64,000 nt of DNA from Shouchella rhizosphaerae (lineage in GTDB: Bacteria; Bacillota; Bacilli; Bacillales; Bacillaceae_D): assembly GCF_900142675.1 (NCBI RefSeq), contig NZ_FRBS01000005.1, positions 249,134-313,133 on the forward strand, in the 5' to 3' direction. A model generated the notes under the pieces. It made no database searches. It was given only the letters and a program-made list of their open reading frames with translations, and had not been told where the DNA came from. The position numbers and the translations under genes are program-made. Below, in pieces: positions 6,870 to 14,913 of the stretch; positions within the stretch are counted from its first letter, which is position 1; the number at the start of each line of letters is the position of its first letter.

Positions 6870-7042
6870 TTAAAATGTTATTCTATTTTAAAAATAAAGG
6901 GAGGCGAATGAAGAGGCATATAGAATGTGTGACTGTCGCAAACAACAACTTACATGCCGCCGGGGAGAGTATGTTTTAACTCTCATAGAGGAAAAAATGA
7001 CTTTCTCGCGAAGCATAGCAGTCAGAAAGGGAGGAATGCTTG

Positions 7043-8083
7043 ATGAAGGTATGGAAAGCCAAGGAAATTGCTCATGAATGGGTATGGGCGTATGCCGAGG
7101 GAAAAAAGTGGTTCAAAGGAGCTTATTTTAGTGGTTCCGCCGCTGAACAGGCAGATAATTCGTACTTGGCGCCTCACTCAGATTTAGACATCATGGTCGT
7201 CACGTCTTTTGAGGAGCCTCCTTTAAAAATCGGCAAATTTCGCTATAAAGGCGTTTTACTAGAAGTTTCTTTTATTCCTGAAAAGGCGCTGTCATCGGCT
7301 GAAGCCGTTCTGTCACACTACCATATCGCCCATGCCTTTCAGAACGACACGATTATTGTTGACCAAGAAGGGTTTCTCAAGCCTTTGCAAAAGGAAGTCG
7401 CACGCCACTTTTGCCAAGAACAATGGGTCAAGCGCCGCCTTGCCGATGTCCGTTCAAAATCGGAGAGAGGGCTAGAACAACTTCACGTTGAAAAACCGTT
7501 TCACGAGCTTGTCATGAACTGGCTTTTCCCGACTGGTGTCGTCGCCCATCTTTTTCTTGTCGCCGCCTTACGCAACCCTACTGTACGGCTTCGTTACTTA
7601 GCGGCAAAAGATGTGCTCACGTCTTACCAACTGGAGGACGTATATGAGCATTTGCTTCACCAATTAGGTTGCCAACACATGGATGCCAAACAGGCCAAGC
7701 GCCATTTAACGGCACTGGCCCATACGTTTGACATGACGGTAAAGCTGAAAAAAACAGCTTTCTTTTTTAGCTCTGACATTTCACTAGAAGCACGCCCACT
7801 GGCAGTAGATGGCACAGAAAAACTGATTGACGAAGGCCACCACCGTGAGGCCATTTTTTGGATCATTGCCACGTTTGCCCGCTGCCATCTGATATTAGCT
7901 GCAGATTGCCCAACTAGCCATCAAGCAGAACTCGGCTATTTTCAAGAAGCGTTAGCTGATATCGGCATTGCAAATCATGCTGATTTGTTAAACAAAGCCG
8001 CCTACACTCGTTCAACAATGGGAACGATGTGTAAAGCGGCTCTTAACATCCTAGAAAGAAATCCAGCTATTGTGTGCACGTAA
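7043..8083 (+). CDS. Nucleotidyltransferase-domain protein
   Basis: Protein of 346 residues. Near the N terminus, YFSGSAAEQADNS followed by HSDLDIMVV gives the GS...DxD signature of the polymerase-beta-like nucleotidyltransferase superfamily, the fold of aminoglycoside nucleotidyltransferases. The remainder is helical with no recognised domain. The true substrate is unknown; antibiotic modification is only one possibility. ATG at 7043 is eight bases after AGGGAGG. The gene is alone and divergent from pfeT, and converges on the hxlA end. Confidence 0.6.
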   Translation: MKVWKAKEIAHEWVWAYAEGKKWFKGAYFSGSAAEQADNSYLAPHSDLDIMVVTSFEEPPLKIGKFRYKGVLLEVSFIPEKALSSAEAVLSHYHIAHAFQNDTIIVDQEGFLKPLQKEVARHFCQEQWVKRRLADVRSKSERGLEQLHVEKPFHELVMNWLFPTGVVAHLFLVAALRNPTVRLRYLAAKDVLTSYQLEDVYEHLLHQLGCQHMDAKQAKRHLTALAHTFDMTVKLKKTAFFFSSDISLEARPLAVDGTEKLIDEGHHREAIFWIIATFARCHLILAADCPTSHQAELGYFQEALADIGIANHADLLNKAAYTRSTMGTMCKAALNILERNPAIVCT

Positions 8084-8109: not shown

Positions 8110-8736
8110 TTACCCCGATGACGCTATTCGTTTTTTGATGTGCATCGCCGCTTCCTTTGGCTTTTCGGCTTTAGTGACCCCGCTGCCGACAATGATGACG
8201 TCTGGCCGGTATGGGAGAATCACTGGCAACGATTCAACCGTAACACCACCGGCAATAGCCGTTTTTAGTCCAGTTCCTTCGACTAACTGAAACAGCCCTT
8301 GTCCAAGCTGTTTATGCTGCTGTTCGTCCTTGCCGAGATGAAGCCCGACAAATGAAACGCCTTGTTCTTTCAATGCCTTCACTTGCTCGGTTTTGTCAAC
8401 GCCAAGGAGGTCAACCATCATTTCTTTGCCTTCTTGGCTGGCTACTGAAAGCGTCTCCGCAATGGTGGCAGCTGGAGCGAATGCCATGACCGTTGCGATA
8501 TCGGCGCCTGCTGCAAACGCTTGTCGTGCCTCGTGTTTCCCGGCATCGCAAATTTTCATGTCAGCAAGCAGCGTGTGGCGGGGGAACGCTTTGCGCATTT
8601 GCCTTACAATTTCCATGCCGTATTCTTTGATAACGCCAGTGCCTATTTCAATTATATCAATAGCGTCACTTGTATCTTCCACTAGCGCAAAACACGTTTC
8701 CCAATCAAGGCGGTCGAGCGCAAGCTGCAACTTCAT
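8110..8736 (-). CDS. hxlA: 3-hexulose-6-phosphate synthase-like (OMPDC superfamily)
   Basis: TIM-barrel enzyme of 208 residues, close in length and sequence to HxlA, which condenses formaldehyde with ribulose 5-phosphate. LALD (Asp8), EIG (Glu30) and DMKICD (Asp59, Lys61, Asp64) match the Mg-binding and catalytic set shared by HPS and 3-keto-L-gulonate-6-phosphate decarboxylase (UlaD). After His133 the sequence is HLGKD: Lys136 sits where UlaD, as I recall it, has Arg139 and ordinary HPS has a neutral residue. This leaves open a decarboxylase role. ATG 8736 follows AAAGGGG; upstream in-frame codons have no site. Last gene of the TRAP operon. Confidence 0.8.
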   Translation of the reverse strand: MKLQLALDRLDWETCFALVEDTSDAIDIIEIGTGVIKEYGMEIVRQMRKAFPRHTLLADMKICDAGKHEARQAFAAGADIATVMAFAPAATIAETLSVASQEGKEMMVDLLGVDKTEQVKALKEQGVSFVGLHLGKDEQQHKQLGQGLFQLVEGTGLKTAIAGGVTVESLPVILPYRPDVIIVGSGVTKAEKPKEAAMHIKKRIASSG

Positions 8737-8758
8737 GTCGATTCCCCTTTCCTCAATA

Positions 8759-9709
8759 CTAGCGTTCAATTCGTTCAAGCTCGCCGAGCTGCGCTTGCAC
8801 TTCTTCTAAATAAGGCAAGCCTTCGTTGTCCCCGACAATGCTGACGACCATCGAACCTATTGTGTTAGCAAATGCCAGCATCCGTTCAAGAGGCCAACCT
8901 TGGAGATACCCATACAACAGTCCAGCATCAAAGCCGTCTCCAGCGCCAACTGTGTCGACGACTTTTGTCGCCTGCACTGGTGCTGCCTCGACGACTTTGC
9001 CTTGATAACTGCCGACCGAGCCATTCTCTCCTCGTTTAATTGCTACTAAGTCTATCCCAAGCTTCGTCGTTTCAGCGATAATCTCAGTTGGGTCGCTTGT
9101 TCCGAGAATAATCTCCATCTCTTCATCGCCTGTGAGGAGAATGTCAACTTCTTGCAAAAGCGGGTACAGAGCAAGTCGCGCTTCCTCTTTGCTCCAAAGG
9201 CGCAGGCGAATATTGGGGTCAAACGCAACTTTTACGCCATTTTCTTTGGCAAGCTTGATTGCTTGCTTTGTCACTGCCATATTGCCAGTGGCAACTGCTG
9301 GGTAAATCCCTGTTAAATGGAGAATTTTCGCTTGTTGGAAATAGCTCGGGTTTAAATCCTCAGGCTTTAATGTCTCTGTTGGCGACGGATTGCGATAATA
9401 AAGAGTGCGTCCCGCTCCGTTTGCCATGATTTCTTTAAAGTTAAGCGATGTGGCATAGCCGTCGACTAATTTCGTTTCGCTGACGTCTACCCCTTCGCCT
9501 CGGGCAAATGTTTGAATATGCTGGCCAAATTCATCTTTCCCAAGCCGGCTAATCCAGCCTGTTTTTAAGCCTAGTCGTGAACAGCCAATTGCCACATTTA
9601 ATTCAGCTCCGCCAACACGGCGCTCGAACGAGTGGACAAATTTTAGTGGCCCAGTCGCATTTGGGCTAAAAGAGATCATTGCATCTCCTAGTGTAATGAC
9701 ATCAAACAT
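8759..9709 (-). CDS. kdgK: PfkB-family sugar-acid kinase, KdgK-like
   Basis: Carbohydrate kinase of 316 residues of the PfkB family. It has the N-terminal GGAELNVA sugar-binding motif (residues 33-40), DPNIR (164-168) and the catalytic GAGD at 255-258. DPNIR and the overall pattern are those of 2-keto-3-deoxygluconate kinases, which make KDPG in the cytoplasm. No KDPG aldolase is encoded in this operon, so it may phosphorylate another 2-keto acid. Its start overlaps the rpiA stop by eight bases, with the ribosome site AAAGGAG inside rpiA. The hxlA gene follows after 22 bases. Confidence 0.82.
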   Translation of the reverse strand: MFDVITLGDAMISFSPNATGPLKFVHSFERRVGGAELNVAIGCSRLGLKTGWISRLGKDEFGQHIQTFARGEGVDVSETKLVDGYATSLNFKEIMANGAGRTLYYRNPSPTETLKPEDLNPSYFQQAKILHLTGIYPAVATGNMAVTKQAIKLAKENGVKVAFDPNIRLRLWSKEEARLALYPLLQEVDILLTGDEEMEIILGTSDPTEIIAETTKLGIDLVAIKRGENGSVGSYQGKVVEAAPVQATKVVDTVGAGDGFDAGLLYGYLQGWPLERMLAFANTIGSMVVSIVGDNEGLPYLEEVQAQLGELERIER

Positions 9710-10388
9710 TGAATTCGTCTCCTTTTGTTATATGATGGATACCGTTTTTGCTTGCTACAATGGCTTCGCAAGCCATGTCCAAAAATAGGCCTGTTTCTAC
9801 GACGCCAACAAGTTTTTTCACCTTTTCATGCAAGCTATAAGGATCGCGAATGTTGCCAAAATCACAGTCAAGTATCCAATTATGGTTATCTGAAACAAAT
9901 GGGCTTTTGCCCGTTTGCCGCAAACTCGCTACACCGCCTAGCGCTTCAATCCGCATGGCTGTTGTTTCCCACCCAAATGGAATGATCTCGACTGGTAGTT
10001 TGAAAGCGCCCAACTCCTCTACAAGCTTGCTTTCATCGGCAAGTACGACGAGACGCTTCGCTGCTGCCGCTACCAGTTTTTCTCGTAAAAGCGACCCGCC
10101 GCCCCCTTTTAATAGCATAAGGCCAGGGGCAATTTCATCAGCTCCGTCAAAAGCGACCTCTAGCTTTTCCTTTGTTGGAAAATCGATGATGTGTATGCCA
10201 CATGCTTTAGCAAGTGCTTCCGTTTTCCGTGAGGCCGCCACAGCTTGTATGTTCAGCCCTTCTTTTGCTTTTTCTCCTAACACACGGACAAATTCAAACA
10301 CCGTTGAACCAGAACCTAGCCCGATCTTCATGCCATCTTTCACATACTCTGCAGCAGCTTCCGCCGCCATTCTTTTCAGCTGATCCAA
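9702..10388 (-). CDS. rpiA: Ribose-5-phosphate isomerase A
   Basis: Protein of 228 residues with all RpiA hallmarks: GLGSGST phosphate loop (residues 23-29), DGADE (81-85), KGGGG (94-98) and REK with the catalytic glutamate at 103. It interconverts ribulose 5-phosphate and ribose 5-phosphate. The start is TTG at 10388 after AGGAGGGG. Being inside a TRAP/kinase operon suggests that the pathway yields a pentulose 5-phosphate. It starts 16 bases after hxlB ends. Confidence 0.95.
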   Translation of the reverse strand: MDQLKRMAAEAAAEYVKDGMKIGLGSGSTVFEFVRVLGEKAKEGLNIQAVAASRKTEALAKACGIHIIDFPTKEKLEVAFDGADEIAPGLMLLKGGGGSLLREKLVAAAAKRLVVLADESKLVEELGAFKLPVEIIPFGWETTAMRIEALGGVASLRQTGKSPFVSDNHNWILDCDFGNIRDPYSLHEKVKKLVGVVETGLFLDMACEAIVASKNGIHHITKGDEFNV

Positions 10389-10404
10389 ATAAGACGCTCC
10401 CCTC

Positions 10405-10956
10405 CTATTCCAAATTGGCGTGACGCGCTTTCATTTCTGCCTGTTTTTCTTTTGTGAGCTTGACAACAATGGCATCTAATAACAGATGGATGCTTTGGTC
10501 AAATTGGTTACCTAAAGGCTGAATCGTTTTTGGTTCGTCGGGCTTTCGCTGTTTTGTTGCTGCCGGTACAAACAAACATGTTTCGCAAAGATCGCCGAAT
10601 TCTGTTTCCCGGTTTGCGGTTACAAGCATCACCTTGGCGCCAGCTTGCTTTGCTTTTTTTATAACCTGCCTAGCTGCGACTCCTGAGGCCGAGCCAGAAA
10701 CGAGAAGCAGGACATCGCCTTTACCAATGCTTGGTGTAATCGTTTCGCCGACGACGTACACCTCGTAGCCTCCATGCATTAAACGCATAGCAATTGCTTT
10801 GCCCATTAGGCCAGACCGGCCGTCGCCGCTAATAAAGATGCGCCGTGCGTGTTTAAACCCTTGGGCAATCGCCGCCAGCTCTTCTTCCTTTGTGCAGGAA
10901 ATAACCGTACTTATTTCCTCTACGCATGCTTGGGCCGTCTCTTTAAATGAGTCCAT
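10405..10956 (-). CDS. hxlB: 6-phospho-3-hexuloisomerase-like SIS protein
   Basis: SIS-domain protein of 183 residues. GDGRSGLMGKAIAMRLMH and the C-terminal RHANLE are near-identical to B. subtilis HxlB, which moves the carbonyl of hexulose 6-phosphate between C3 and C2. Two positions differ from HxlB as I recall it: the SGSGE loop is SGSASG (87-92), and the FEQ glutamate thought to be in the active site is Asp153 (FDQ). These may mark a changed substrate. ATG at 10956 follows AGGAGG by eight bases, 12 bases after dctM. Confidence 0.83.
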   Translation of the reverse strand: MDSFKETAQACVEEISTVISCTKEEELAAIAQGFKHARRIFISGDGRSGLMGKAIAMRLMHGGYEVYVVGETITPSIGKGDVLLLVSGSASGVAARQVIKKAKQAGAKVMLVTANRETEFGDLCETCLFVPAATKQRKPDEPKTIQPLGNQFDQSIHLLLDAIVVKLTKEKQAEMKARHANLE

Positions 10957-10968
10957 TTGTTCTTCCTC

Positions 10969-12252
10969 CTAGTATTCATTTAATAAACTTGGCAGCCATA
11001 ACGCCACAGCCGGCACAAACGCAACAATTAAAATCGCCACAAGGATGACCGCTACATAAGGCAATAAAGCAACTACTGAACGGCTAACAGACAATTTCGC
11101 TATTGAACTTGCCAACAGCATACATAGGCCATAAGGCGGCGTAATCATGCCAACGGCCAAGCACATCACGATGACAATCCCAAAATGAATCGGATCGATA
11201 CCAAGTGTTTGTGACGCTGGAAGGACGATTGGCACAAACAAAATCATTGCTGGAATGGCATCTAAAAACATGCCGACAAAGAGAAACAATAAAATGACAG
11301 CAAGCAAGAACAGGCCAGCACTTGAAAATGTCGAATCAAAAAATCCGGCAATCGCATCAGGTACACGGTAGTAGCTAAATAACCGCCCAAGAGCGCTTGC
11401 TGTCGCCAACGCAAACAACGTAAGAGAACTTAGACGGATCGTATCAAATATAATTTCCGGCATGTCCTTCCATTTAATGGTTTTGTAGACGAACATCGCT
11501 AAAATGAGCGCATACAAGCAGGCAATAATGGCCGCTTCTGTCGGCGTAACAAACCCACCGATGATTCCCCCTAAAATAATCAAAGGCGTCAATAAAGGCG
11601 GCACGCACTTTAGAAATTGCCGGCCAATTTCAGCGAGTTTAACACGCTCATGGCGGGGATAGTTTTGCCTACGAGAAACGAAGGCAACAAGAGCCATCAT
11701 CGCCACGCCCATTAAAAGGCCAGGAATAATGCCGCCGATAAACATTTGCCCGACAGAAACACTTGTCACACTGCCATACACGACCATTGGGATGCTTGGC
11801 GGAATCAGCAAGCCCATTGTGGAAGATGCCGCTGTTGTACCGACGGCGGTTGACTTGCTATAGCCTTCCTTCATCATGCTTGGAATCAAAATTTTTCCGA
11901 TGCCAGCTGTGTCTGCCTGTGCAGAACCAGAGATGCCGCCAAAAAACATCGACACCACAATATTAGCTTGAGCGAGACCGCCGCGAATGTGGCCGACCAT
12001 TGAAACCGCCAATTGGATTAAACGCTCTGAAATTTGCCCTTGGTTCATAATGTTTGCCGCTAAAATAAAGAGAGGCACTGCCAGTAGAATAAACGATTCC
12101 ACACCAGCAAACATCGTCTGTACAACAATTTGCAACGGCATGGCATCGAGAAGCCAGATGCCTACAAAAGCGACAATCCCAAGCGTAAACGCAATGGGTA
12201 CCCCTAAAAACAAGAGCACAATAAACAACAGCACTAAAAAGAGACCGATCAT
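10969..12252 (-). CDS. dctM: TRAP transporter large permease (DctM family)
   Basis: Membrane protein of 427 residues with about twelve hydrophobic segments. GISGSAQADTAGIG and LIPPSIPMVVYG are the two conserved DctM stretches. It is the sodium-coupled transport subunit that works with the small permease and binding protein encoded upstream. Its ATG overlaps the dctQ stop as ATGA. TRAP systems mostly move carboxylates, including sugar acids, which matters for guessing this operon's substrate. Confidence 0.95.
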   Translation of the reverse strand: MIGLFLVLLFIVLLFLGVPIAFTLGIVAFVGIWLLDAMPLQIVVQTMFAGVESFILLAVPLFILAANIMNQGQISERLIQLAVSMVGHIRGGLAQANIVVSMFFGGISGSAQADTAGIGKILIPSMMKEGYSKSTAVGTTAASSTMGLLIPPSIPMVVYGSVTSVSVGQMFIGGIIPGLLMGVAMMALVAFVSRRQNYPRHERVKLAEIGRQFLKCVPPLLTPLIILGGIIGGFVTPTEAAIIACLYALILAMFVYKTIKWKDMPEIIFDTIRLSSLTLFALATASALGRLFSYYRVPDAIAGFFDSTFSSAGLFLLAVILLFLFVGMFLDAIPAMILFVPIVLPASQTLGIDPIHFGIVIVMCLAVGMITPPYGLCMLLASSIAKLSVSRSVVALLPYVAVILVAILIVAFVPAVALWLPSLLNEY

Positions 12253-12743
12253 GCCGCATCACTTTCCTTTTTTAAAGAATGGGCGCCAATGTCTTCCACA
12301 GCATTGCCAATGGCAAAGGCCAACATCGCAAATCCAGATACAGGAAGGACAAGCCACAAGTATCCTTGCTGTAGCTCCGGCAGCGTGTTTACTGTCCACT
12401 CCCAAAACAAGTGCGTCAGCTTAGAGCCGTAAACGACCATAGCAGCACCGAAAGCACCAATCAACACGTGGCTGACCAATTTGGTTAAAAGCAACGGCAA
12501 GCCGGCAAGTTTTTCATACAAATAATCAATTTTAAAATGTTCTTGATGGCGGACCATGACAGCAGCACCTAAAAATACCGTCCAAATAAATGCATATGTA
12601 GCAATTTCCGCTGCCCATAAAATCGTGATCCCCGGTACGTAACGCGATAGCAGCTGTAAAAATATGCACACGACAAAGCCGACAAAGAACACCGCCGCAG
12701 CACGCATCAGCACCCATTCTAGACTATTTAAAAACGCCTTCAT
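12249..12743 (-). CDS. dctQ: TRAP transporter small permease (DctQ family)
   Basis: Four-helix membrane protein of 164 residues, the usual DctQ size, carrying the common RHQEHFKIDYL region between helices. It partners DctM. I place the start at ATG 12743, eight bases after GAAGGAGGG; the open frame extends 15 codons farther but these overlap the dctP end and have no ribosome site. It overlaps dctM by four bases. Confidence 0.92.
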   Translation of the reverse strand: MKAFLNSLEWVLMRAAAVFFVGFVVCIFLQLLSRYVPGITILWAAEIATYAFIWTVFLGAAVMVRHQEHFKIDYLYEKLAGLPLLLTKLVSHVLIGAFGAAMVVYGSKLTHLFWEWTVNTLPELQQGYLWLVLPVSGFAMLAFAIGNAVEDIGAHSLKKESDAA

Positions 12744-12759
12744 GATTTGCGCCCTCCTT

Positions 12760-13764
12760 CTAATCCGCCAAGGAGCGGATTCTTTCATAAAGTTCGGTCG
12801 CGCCTAATTGCGCTGCTGCTTTCTCTCTTACTTCTTCTGTCTGTTCAATTAATGGGTCGGTGTCGATTTCCTGGACAATTGCCCCCTCCTCCTCCAGCCG
12901 CTCAAGGGACTGTTTTGCCAGTTCCTTATCTGCTTGGCGGGCAGCAACAGTCGCTTCCTCTGCCGCTTCATAGATCGCCTGTTGCTCTTCTTTAGAGAAG
13001 CGCTCCATTACAATGTCCGATGTTAAAAAGAAACGTGTCGTATAATCATGGTTCGTTAACGTCAAGTAAGGCGTCACTTCATGATGGCTCGATTGATAAA
13101 TATTTGTAAAATCATTTTCCGAGGCATCGACAACCCGGTTTTGCAATGCTTGGTACATCTCATCCCAGGCCACACTTGTCGGCAGTGCCCCTAATGCTGT
13201 CCAACTATCCTGGATGGCAGGCGAGTCTTGCGTTCGAATGCTAACATTGCGCAAATCGTCTATATGAGCAAGTGGTGCTGGCCCATAGTATTGTCGTACT
13301 CCCGCTGTCCAATAGCCGAGCACTTGCAAGTTTGTGTCCCTTTCAATCAACTCGCTCATTTCTACGCCAATCTCGCCGTCAACAACGCGCTCCCAATGTT
13401 CATAGCTCGTGAACAAATACGGCAGCGAAAATAAGTCGACTTCACGCAATACTTGTGTCATAAACCCAGGCGAAATTACAGCCATATCAACCCCGCCTAT
13501 GGCAATGCTTTGCAACAGCATATCCTCATTGCCGCCTAGCGAGCCATTCGTATGAAGTTCTGCAGTCACAGCGCCTCCCGTCTTTTCCTCAACTGCTTCT
13601 TTAAACGCTTGAAAACCGACTGCGTATGGGCTATTCGCATCTAGTTGCGTCGCCAATATTAGCTTTTTCGGATCACCTGGATCGTTGTCCGCCGTCTCTT
13701 TTACGGCTCCACAGCCACTAAGCAATAAGGTGGCTGTCGCCAACAAAAACAGCTGTTTTCTCAC
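12760..13764 (-). CDS. dctP: TRAP transporter substrate-binding lipoprotein (DctP family)
   Basis: Exported binding protein of 334 residues with a lipobox LLLSGC (Cys18), so it is anchored outside the membrane. The region from about residue 35 (LILATQLDANSPYAVG) through VSIRTQDSPAIQDSWTALGALPT is DctP-like, including the arginine that usually binds a substrate carboxylate (R in SIRTQ). It starts with GTG at 13764 after AAGGAG, 19 bases behind the repressor gene. It delivers an acidic substrate to DctQM. Confidence 0.93.
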   Translation of the reverse strand: MRKQLFLLATATLLLSGCGAVKETADNDPGDPKKLILATQLDANSPYAVGFQAFKEAVEEKTGGAVTAELHTNGSLGGNEDMLLQSIAIGGVDMAVISPGFMTQVLREVDLFSLPYLFTSYEHWERVVDGEIGVEMSELIERDTNLQVLGYWTAGVRQYYGPAPLAHIDDLRNVSIRTQDSPAIQDSWTALGALPTSVAWDEMYQALQNRVVDASENDFTNIYQSSHHEVTPYLTLTNHDYTTRFFLTSDIVMERFSKEEQQAIYEAAEEATVAARQADKELAKQSLERLEEEGAIVQEIDTDPLIEQTEEVREKAAAQLGATELYERIRSLAD

Positions 13765-13783
13765 AAATGCCCACTCTCCTTCA

Positions 13784-14788
13784 TTAACAAGATTGCCTGC
13801 ACTTTAAGGTTGGCTGAAAGCGGTGAGTGCGAATTTCTGAATGTTTTTTGCCTCCATTGATTTCTTCCAGCAGTAGCTCAGCAGCTTTATGGCCCATCGC
13901 AAATGTCGGCTGAGCTACAGTCGTAATGGATGGATTAAAAAAGTCAGCAAACGTCACATCGTCAATCCCAATTAGTGCAATTTGTTCAGGAACATCGATT
14001 TTTTGTTGTTTGATCGAGCGCAGCAATTCATACAAAACTAGATCATTTCCGGCAATAACGGCTTCAGGCGGAGTTGGCAGTGCCAGCATGTCGGCAAGAA
14101 AATGGGGGGCTTCCTCTACTTGCCCCGCCGCAACATACGCTTCCTCATATTCGAGCCCTGCTTCACTAATTGCCTTCATAAAGCCGTCCCGCCGTTCCAT
14201 TCGCGGGGTAATTTCCTCTAAAAGCGGTGGGAGCACTAAACCAATTCGGCGGCGACCACTTTCTGCTAATGCATGGACTGCCAAACGCATCGCTTCTTCA
14301 TTATCGGCAAGCACAGCATTTACAGGGACACCGTGAATGAGTCTATCGATAAATACAAGAGGAAAATGAGCAGCGACGAGTCCATTAAATAACTCCTTAT
14401 TGTCGCTTGTAGGAAAAACGATCAACCCATCAACTTGCTTTGCCCGCAACATCTCCACGTACTTTTTCTCTTTCTGGGGGTCGTTATCTGCATTGCAGAC
14501 AATGACATGGACATCATAGGCATGACATGTATCTTCAATCGCACGAATCACTTCAGTAGAAAAACTATGGAGTATATTGGCGACAATGACGCCAATCGTT
14601 TGCGTTTTTTTCTGCCGCAAACTTCTCGCCACCGCATTTGGGCTATAGCCTAACTCATGAATCGCCTGTTCGATTCGGCTCTTTGTTTCTTCGCTCATAT
14701 AGTGGTAGCGTTTGTTGAGAAATTGCGATACGGTGCTTTTTGATACACCTGCAAGCTTTGCTACGTCTGCCATTGTGACGCTGGCCAT
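13784..14788 (-). CDS. kdgR: LacI-family repressor, KdgR-like
   Basis: Repressor of 334 residues: HTH at residues 4-25 (TMADVAKLAGVSKSTVSQFL), hinge LRQKKTQTIGV, and a sugar-binding core. The stretch NKRYHYMSEETKSRIE and the following IGVIVANILHSFSTE closely resemble B. subtilis KdgR, repressor of 2-keto-3-deoxygluconate use. It is first in the operon, so it is autoregulated; an inverted repeat and a cre-like site lie just upstream. ATG 14788 follows AAAGGAGG by six bases. Confidence 0.88.
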   Translation of the reverse strand: MASVTMADVAKLAGVSKSTVSQFLNKRYHYMSEETKSRIEQAIHELGYSPNAVARSLRQKKTQTIGVIVANILHSFSTEVIRAIEDTCHAYDVHVIVCNADNDPQKEKKYVEMLRAKQVDGLIVFPTSDNKELFNGLVAAHFPLVFIDRLIHGVPVNAVLADNEEAMRLAVHALAESGRRRIGLVLPPLLEEITPRMERRDGFMKAISEAGLEYEEAYVAAGQVEEAPHFLADMLALPTPPEAVIAGNDLVLYELLRSIKQQKIDVPEQIALIGIDDVTFADFFNPSITTVAQPTFAMGHKAAELLLEEINGGKKHSEIRTHRFQPTLKCRQSC

Positions 14789-14801
14789 TCAATTCCTCCT
14801 T

Positions 14802-14819
14802 TACTAAACCGATTTAGTA
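14802..14819. promoter_or_regulatory. Probable KdgR-type operator
   Basis: Inverted repeat TACTAAA-N4-TTTAGTA with CG at the centre, the shape of LacI-family operators. It sits 14-31 bases upstream of the repressor start, so binding would block the whole TRAP operon. Confidence 0.65.
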
Positions 14820-14845
14820 GTAAACTTAATTGCATTCTAACGTTT

Positions 14846-14859
14846 TGTAAGCGCTTTTT
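14846..14859. promoter_or_regulatory. Possible cre (CcpA) site of the TRAP operon
   Basis: TGTAAGCGCTTTTT matches 12 of 14 cre positions on either strand. It lies about 58 bases upstream of the repressor gene, next to the operator, and would give glucose repression. Confidence 0.5.
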
Positions 14860-14913
14860 CAAGTGAAAATATAAAAGTGCCTATAAAAAAGTTTTTCTTT
14901 ATAAAAAATTACT

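Follow-up and report, generated by a model that had tools for sequence, protein, structure and literature searches.

Why two proteins of the formaldehyde-fixing families HxlA and HxlB should be encoded together with a tripartite ATP-independent periplasmic (TRAP) transporter and a sugar kinase is the question raised by an operon of Shouchella rhizosphaerae. The operon lies at 8110-14788 in a 64,000-nucleotide stretch of contig NZ_FRBS01000005.1 (positions 249,134 to 313,133), called here the window. Its eight genes, tightly packed on the minus strand, follow the order LacI-DctP-DctQ-DctM-SIS (HxlB-like)-RpiA-PfkB kinase-HxlA, with overlaps of 4 bases between DctM and DctQ and of 8 bases between RpiA and the kinase (Table 1). 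The operon is real, and the arrangement kdgR-dctPQM-hxlB-rpiA-kdgK-hxlA, tight and with overlaps, that had been proposed in an earlier sequence-only reading was found complete. The KdgK of that reading is a member of the PfkB kinases that reached the cut-off of none of the 22 NCBIfam models it matched (highest score 221.5 of 400, with KDG/KDGal kinase), and its KdgR is a repressor of the LacI family that stayed below the cut-offs of its 18 matching models. Our results suggest that the operon quite probably encodes a decarboxylative pathway of the 2-ketogluconate type, fed by TRAP, in which the HxlA/SIS pair and the kinase most likely convert an oxidised sugar, 2-ketogluconate for example, to a pentose phosphate with release of CO2.

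The HxlA-like protein scores above the cut-off of the curated model for 3-hexulose-6-phosphate synthase (HPS; TIGR03128, 245 against 200 bits) and keeps the DxKxxD letters of the family. It has, however, Arg after Asp8, Gly in GTG and Lys at the position of R139 of UlaD, where HPS has Leu or Glu, Pro (GTP) and Tyr, Leu, Thr or Ile, respectively, so that it departs from HPS at all three places. In a tree of 87 rows, made by a quick method and with several long branches, all 46 Arg rows (the window's and 45 others) formed one side of a branch with an SH-aLRT support of 98. Within this side, the TRAP/UxuA rows (97) were separate from the kgu/Lactobacillales rows (98), each group being a subclade. 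By its letters and its place in the tree, the window protein falls outside HPS. Arg after Asp8 and Lys at the UlaD R139 position were each present in 81 of 81 aligned rows from TRAP-type loci. R139 of UlaD, to which we ascribe a role in decarboxylation, is at a position that varies among the UlaD entries 1kv8, 1xbx and 1xby; at E112, R139 and T169 of UlaD the window protein has Asp, Lys and Ala, so the letters of UlaD/SgbH are not matched, and Lys is basic like Arg.

Within the family Bacillaceae_D, relatives of the window HxlA were found in 26 of 41 genomes, its own included. The window kind (52-100% identical) was present in 15 genomes and a second kind (35-43%) in 20, nine of them having both. 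LacI, kinase, HxlA and SIS were together in 13 of the 14 window-kind loci fetched, the remaining one (L036) having no kinase. All six second-kind loci fetched contained HxlA and SIS and one had an RpiA homologue; the other window genes had no match there. Broken or decayed HxlA copies also occur in relatives, in two pieces in L046 (7142-7760), as a remnant in L269 (6086-8505) and with an in-frame stop in L276 (3461-4066).

A parallel change was seen in the SIS protein, which also exceeds the cut-off for 6-phospho-3-hexuloisomerase (PHI; TIGR03127, 203 against 160 bits). It carries FDQ and SGSASG, the Asp replacing the Glu of the PHI motif P[ML]G..FE and the GET after SGSG being lost; we take this Glu and GET to have a catalytic role in PHI. 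The Asp was conserved in 79 of 79 aligned TRAP-type rows. Another SIS protein (39% identical to the window's), encoded on a plasmid of Variovorax paradoxus (L145, 6051-13178) beside a short 6-phosphogluconate-dehydrogenase-like gene, an ATP-binding cassette sugar transporter and a gluconokinase, retains Glu at the PHI position, and HxlA had no match in that stretch. Short genes 37-39% identical to the Variovorax dehydrogenase-like gene were also observed near HPS-type pairs in L202, L204, L206, L213, L214 and L234.

The neighbours of the two kinds of HxlA were compared in a control set of 59 fetched HxlA-family loci from a class-wide search of 398 Bacilli genomes. The set comprised, among the matches listed, the 20 highest-scoring places and a selection of lower-scoring ones, some of which share a genome (three come from G093), and the kinds were sorted by the presence or absence of Arg after Asp8. 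Each of the 33 Arg-kind loci had at least one of PfkB kinase (24), KguT (13), KguE (14), DctM (10) and UxuA (6), whereas none of these was found in the fetched stretches of the 26 HPS-type loci (Fisher 2.5e-17, a figure that overstates the significance because loci of related genomes are not independent). Generic matches did occur near some of the 26, namely SDR, MDR, short or full 6-phosphogluconate dehydrogenase, a single LacI, cupin and Gfo. Letters independent of the sorting gave the same division, with GT[GS] in 33 of 33 Arg-kind against GTP in 27 of 27 HPS-type copies. At the UlaD 139 position, 25 of 33 Arg-kind copies had Lys and all 27 HPS-type copies had Tyr; the SIS letter was Asp in all 28 copies of the window kind and Glu in 24 of the 26 HPS-type ones, two being unreadable. 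KguD was present in none of the 59 control loci.

The gene-neighbourhood search that the sequence-only reading had proposed showed that the core of the TRAP-type operon is kept in relatives. A scan of genome contigs kept 80 of 164 relatives, Bacilli according to their titles; the counts refer to genes on the HxlA strand within the fetched flanks, three loci (L078, L080 and L132) ending at contig ends. Kinase, SIS, LacI and DctM were each present in 78 of the 80 loci, DctP in 77 and DctQ in 74. RpiA was encoded on the operon strand in 36 loci (on either strand in 43), and just one locus had 6-phosphogluconate dehydrogenase (Gnd), a pattern that fits ribulose 5-phosphate as the product. Less frequent were LDH2 (4), UxuA (2) and DHDPS-family genes (2), together with Gfo/Idh/MocA (16), SDR (6) and MDR (5), figures which include weak matches of large families. 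Among single loci, L129 (14521-17620; Planococcus sp. CPCC 101016) has HxlA, SIS, TRAP and cupin followed by 6-phosphogluconate dehydrogenase, RpiA and a KDG-kinase-like kinase in one gene run, and L033 (4068-5765), from a close relative of the window genome, has two extra open frames of 442 and 111 amino acids between SIS and RpiA.

Many of the loci with a window-kind HxlA are, on their gene content, 2-ketogluconate (kgu) operons. The reference operon of Klebsiella aerogenes has the order PtxS-KguE-KguK-MFS-KguD, where MFS is a major facilitator superfamily transporter. The kgu operons carrying HxlA and SIS lack KguD and contain KguT (61-67%), KguK (48-58%), PtxS or LacI, and often KguE. Three Lactobacillales plasmids, from Tetragenococcus halophilus, Lacticaseibacillus paracasei and Loigolactobacillus coryniformis, share the gene order KguE-permease-kinase-HxlA-SIS-aldolase and have LacI ahead of this run or behind it; their kinases scored best with annotated KguK (238-267 bits) among the references tried, and their SIS gene is annotated as 6-phospho-3-hexuloisomerase. 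The TRAP-type loci are connected to this set by KguE. The TIM-barrel protein encoded before the operon in L064 is homologous to KguE (identities of 37% and 34% with Enterobacterales proteins, of which one is annotated 'Epimerase KguE'), and such a homologue stands 92-268 bases from LacI in seven of the 80 loci. The two genes share a strand in L064, L077 and L085 (the latter two 57-59% identical to the L064 protein) and are divergent in L075, L082, L098 and L107, where the identity is only 34%.

Whether the pair takes the place of KguD was assessed at the 27 KguT loci (matches at E<=1e-100) of the 398 Bacilli genomes. An intact Arg-type HxlA/SIS pair was present in 15, all in open frames, a damaged pair in two, KguD in one and neither in nine. 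The damaged cases were L276, with SIS and an HxlA containing an in-frame stop, and L269, with a broken kinase and a remnant of HxlA/SIS. In L270, KguD accompanied the rest of the kgu operon and an aldolase, and the pair was absent. KguD and the pair were together in none of the 27 loci, just one KguD locus being available for this comparison.

The proposed route begins with DctPQM, which would import a 2-keto-hexonate, most likely 2-keto-D-gluconate, for the kinase to convert into 2-keto-6-phosphogluconate. The SIS protein would then move the carbonyl from C2 to C3, giving 3-keto-6-phosphogluconate, and the HxlA-like protein would decarboxylate this to ribulose 5-phosphate and CO2; RpiA would pass the former on as ribose 5-phosphate. 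HPS joins formaldehyde and ribulose 5-phosphate into hexulose 6-phosphate, and HxlA with HxlB leads to fructose 6-phosphate, as stated in a passage of PMC8879981. The window pair may act as PHI and HPS in reverse, on a substrate with a C1 carboxylate instead of a hydroxymethyl group. Fructose 6-phosphate, hexulose 6-phosphate and ribulose 5-phosphate plus formaldehyde would have as counterparts 2-keto-6-phosphogluconate, 3-keto-6-phosphogluconate and ribulose 5-phosphate plus CO2. In the usual route, KguK and KguD turn 2-ketogluconate into 6-phosphogluconate (from a passage of PMC5902321). The pair would substitute for KguD and 6-phosphogluconate dehydrogenase, with an equal net reaction and no need for NADP. 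Since 6-phosphogluconate dehydrogenase returns the reducing equivalent used by KguD, the net change to ribulose 5-phosphate is identical. That a 2-keto-hexonate is led to ribulose 5-phosphate had been suggested in the sequence-only reading, and this suggestion gains support from window-kind HxlA/SIS pairs in kgu operons devoid of KguD and from an HxlA separate from HPS, both kinds coexisting in nine of the 15 window-kind genomes of the family.

TRAP-type and kgu-type operons have an operator in common. The single operator claimed earlier is real: it is the palindrome TAAACCGATTTA, and its core AAA[CT]CG[AG]TTT was found upstream of LacI in 73 of 78 sequences (the window and 77 loci), the mean in shuffled sequences being 0.2 and the largest value 3. 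Operators of the window type also lie upstream of kguE in L190, L192, L219, L220 and L221, three of which (L192, L220 and L221) have a further one before hxlA; the LacI proteins of these kgu operons are 48-50% identical to the window's in L190, L192, L220 and L221, and 45% in L219. The PtxS site for 2-ketogluconate in Pseudomonas is given in a passage of PMC5902321 as TGAAACCGGTTTCA, whose core matches AAAYCGRTTT. An operator of the window type was found as well in L146, a UxuA operon of Bacillus velezensis that has no HxlA/SIS and encodes homologues of the kinase (49%) and of LacI (50%). LacI-family sites often resemble one another, and since the operator also precedes this UxuA-type operon, the shared operator does not fix the effector. 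A search of the window genome with the operator gave three places and the reversed control pattern gave five, which leaves no ground for claiming a wider regulon. The catabolite-responsive element (cre) that had also been claimed turned out to be weak: an exact cre was present upstream of LacI in 0 of 78 sequences and one with a single mismatch in 11 of 78 (shuffled mean 0.84). The terminator scan was weak.

Table 1. Genes of the operon and candidate control sites upstream of it, in window coordinates
Feature	Coordinates	Strand	Basis or remark
HxlA-like protein, HPS/KGPDC family, predicted 3-keto-6-phosphogluconate decarboxylase	8110..8736	-	TIGR03128 245 bits; tree branch; letters
PfkB-family sugar-acid kinase, predicted to phosphorylate a 2-keto-hexonate	8759..9709	-	PF00294 1.4e-58
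Ribose 5-phosphate isomerase RpiA	9702..10388	-	NF001924 269.8 bits (cut-off 192)
SIS protein, HxlB-like, predicted 2-keto/3-keto isomerase of a phosphorylated acid	10405..10956	-	TIGR03127 203 bits (cut-off 160)
TRAP large permease DctM	10969..12252	-	TIGR00786 415 bits (cut-off 268)
TRAP small permease DctQ	12249..12743	-	PF04290 3.7e-29, above Pfam cut-off
TRAP solute-binding protein DctP	12760..13764	-	PF03480 1.1e-64; NCBIfam DctP 188.8 bits (cut-off 175)
LacI-family repressor	13784..14788	-	PF00356 and PF13377; 48-50% homologues inside kgu operons L190, L192, L220, L221
Palindromic operator TAAACCGATTTA	14805..14816	.	Core conserved upstream of LacI
cre-like site, weak	14846..14859	.	One mismatch; 7 such in window against 3.2 expected
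Promoter-like TTGAAA-17-TAGAAT	14834..14862	-	11 such sites in region against 9.1 expected; weak alone

DctP is probably a lipoprotein, judging from an N-terminal LSGC spotted by eye. Convergent to the operon, window positions 7040-8083 encode a 347-amino-acid protein, nucleotidyltransferase-like by eye. A frame of 347 amino acids occupies the same place in L033, L034, L035, L037 and L046, and the L034 homologue had no NCBIfam match.

Several observations weigh against 2-ketogluconate as the substrate of the window operon or against the pair as a substitute for KguD. KguD and the pair are both missing from nine of the 27 KguT loci, and a single KguD locus was seen; moreover, seven of the 80 TRAP-type loci have KguD-like genes (29-50%), members of a common dehydrogenase family, in their flanks, 4-9 kb from HxlA and outside the core. 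KguE had no match in the window genome, in a search made without a positive control, and KguT had none at 1e-30, the same query matching in 27 of the 398 Bacilli genomes. The TRAP-type HxlA forms a sister subclade to the kgu type, so the TRAP substrate could be another 2-keto-hexonate, and the aldolase of the 2-keto-3-deoxy-6-phosphogluconate (KDPG) family encoded in 54 of the 80 loci has no step in the proposed route. The Lys at the UlaD R139 position was not universal in the wider window-kind set, its place being taken by I (5), V (2) or L (1) in the eight others of the 33. The window kinase gave 193 bits with annotated KguK and 203 bits with the kinase for 2-keto-3-deoxygluconate (KDG), its best PDB relative being the KDG kinase 1v19; as KguK is no nearer to it than KDG kinase is, neither name is established. 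Finally, the kinase, LacI and operator shared with the B. velezensis UxuA operon imply that the regulator and the kinase may answer to KDG.

Among the alternatives, the one that survives best keeps the same logic with another substrate: the KguT form would take 2-ketogluconate, and the TRAP form a different 2-keto-hexonate of identical C4-C5 end, alone or mixed with KDG. We regard it as unlikely, although the separate TRAP-type subclade (97) next to the kgu type (98) and the position of the kinase at an equal distance from KguK and KDG kinase speak for it, as do the genes added to the operon in L088 and L106 (LDH2, MDR, UxuA and SDR) and in L096 and L126 (LDH2). KguE beside seven TRAP-type loci and the related LacI with the same operator in kgu operons argue the other way. 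The kinase letters (Asn for Tyr89, SP for SA) were tried as a discriminator of substrate and rejected, the kinases of the UxuA-containing L088 and L106 sharing the TRAP-type letters; they do separate the second, KDG-type kinases of L096 and L126.

That the pair is an ordinary HPS/PHI, capturing or detoxifying formaldehyde and caught in a sugar-acid operon, seems very improbable. In its favour, the two proteins score above the HPS and PHI equivalog cut-offs of NCBIfam, and the window genome has no other HPS, its sole other OMPdecase-family gene being a stronger match taken to be pyrF. This explanation was nevertheless rejected on clade, context and letters: the HxlA-like protein belongs to a separate clade with distinct active-site letters, sugar-acid neighbours accompany every window-kind locus of the control set and no HPS locus, a second, HPS-type gene coexists in nine of the 15 family genomes, and there is no formaldehyde gene among the eight of the operon.

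The aldolase bears on the third alternative, a KDG operon in which TRAP imports KDG, the kinase makes KDPG, the aldolase splits it and HxlA/SIS are accessory. The sequence-only reading had described the operon as having HxlA, HxlB and RpiA instead of a KDPG aldolase, which holds for the window, where none was found in 8110-14788, and is not general. It had also named beforehand, as refuting its pathway, the case that relatives encode a KDPG aldolase with the conserved cluster, and such a gene is present in the 54 loci mentioned, 52 of them having it within 400 bases of a core gene. We do not take this as refuting the pathway because the KguD-type operon L270 also has an aldolase and 26 of the 80 loci show none (three end at contig ends). 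A transporter and a kinase shared by KDG and 2-ketogluconate would explain the aldolase, and both L270 and the loci L096 and L126 agree with a parallel role for it. The latter two each have two PfkB kinases, of which one adjoins HxlA/SIS and the other, KDG-kinase-like, adjoins the aldolase; LDH2 and a DHDPS-family enzyme are also encoded there. The aldolases of TRAP-type loci have mostly EITAETP (Glu in 51 of 55 rows) against EITFTVP in a Thermotoga-type aldolase, and their substrate may differ. As the whole story, a KDG operon is the least probable of the three and was rejected: the frequent aldolase, the kinase and LacI homologues of the UxuA operon without HxlA/SIS, and a KdgF-like cupin in 18 of the 80 loci (KdgF was among the PDB relatives of the cupin) favour it, but the aldolase is optional and HxlA/SIS are not, a second kinase with KDG-kinase-like letters adjoins the aldolase in L096 and L126, the two KDPG-family aldolases of the window genome are encoded elsewhere, and KDG, which has no C3 hydroxyl, cannot undergo a C2/C3 carbonyl shift. 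One of those two aldolases is in a galactonate operon (IclR-type regulator, kinase and galactonate dehydratase), and the neighbours of the other were not matched by the queries used. The E. coli ascorbate route through L-xylulose 5-phosphate was rejected, the operon having RpiA in place of UlaE/UlaF, two proteins that were not searched for.

Beyond the window, it is rather likely that a redox-neutral, decarboxylative 2-ketogluconate pathway, with a C2/C3 ketol-isomerase of the PHI family acting on 2-keto-6-phosphogluconate and an HPS-family decarboxylase acting on 3-keto-6-phosphogluconate, is widespread in Bacilli. It would be served by KguT, a gluconate-symporter-like permease or TRAP, with a decarboxylase clade apart from HPS and with both enzymes liable to be named formaldehyde enzymes by curated models. 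Among the matches listed in a search of the open-licence literature, no titles or beginnings of abstracts described a decarboxylative 2-ketogluconate pathway, and no paper of the open-licence PubMed Central had 'ketogluconate' and 'hexuloisomerase' together. What is proposed is a kgu-type pathway in which a decarboxylative pair, drawn from suprafamilies already known, takes over from the reductase. Under the usual gene labels this route would go unnoticed, as annotation would call both genes formaldehyde-fixing. If the proposal is true, one short route contains two new enzyme activities, central metabolism gains a sugar-acid pathway making pentose phosphate without NADP, and genes scored as formaldehyde-fixing are something else, both window proteins exceeding the curated cut-offs for HPS and PHI. 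When natural formaldehyde-fixing enzymes are sought, such pairs could be told apart by the Arg after Asp8 of HxlA and the Asp of SIS.

Compared with known systems, the pair shares with HPS/PHI (HxlA/HxlB) the protein families, the DxKxxD letters and scores above the NCBIfam cut-offs, and differs in Arg after Asp8, GT[GS] instead of GTP, Lys instead of Tyr, the SIS Asp instead of Glu, the loss of GET and the separate clade. UlaD and SgbH of the E. coli ula and yia-sgb systems belong to the same suprafamily, decarboxylate a 3-keto acid 6-phosphate, as predicted for the window protein, and have a basic residue at 139; the window protein differs from them in its Asp and Ala at the E112 and T169 positions. 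We take the E. coli yia operon to contain a TRAP transporter and a kinase, like the window operon, and the product of UlaD/SgbH to be L-xylulose 5-phosphate, handled with UlaE/UlaF, against the D-ribulose 5-phosphate with RpiA predicted here. Gnd also passes through 3-keto-6-phosphogluconate to ribulose 5-phosphate and CO2, but it requires NADP and starts from 6-phosphogluconate, and the window operon has no dehydrogenase among its eight genes. From the kgu operon (ptxS-kguE-kguK-kguT-kguD) the window operon differs in having the HxlA-like and SIS proteins in the place of KguD, TRAP for KguT and no KguE match in its genome; the two are alike in the superfamily of the kinase and in the LacI-type repressor, and relatives with window-kind HxlA/SIS hold KguE, KguK and KguT themselves.

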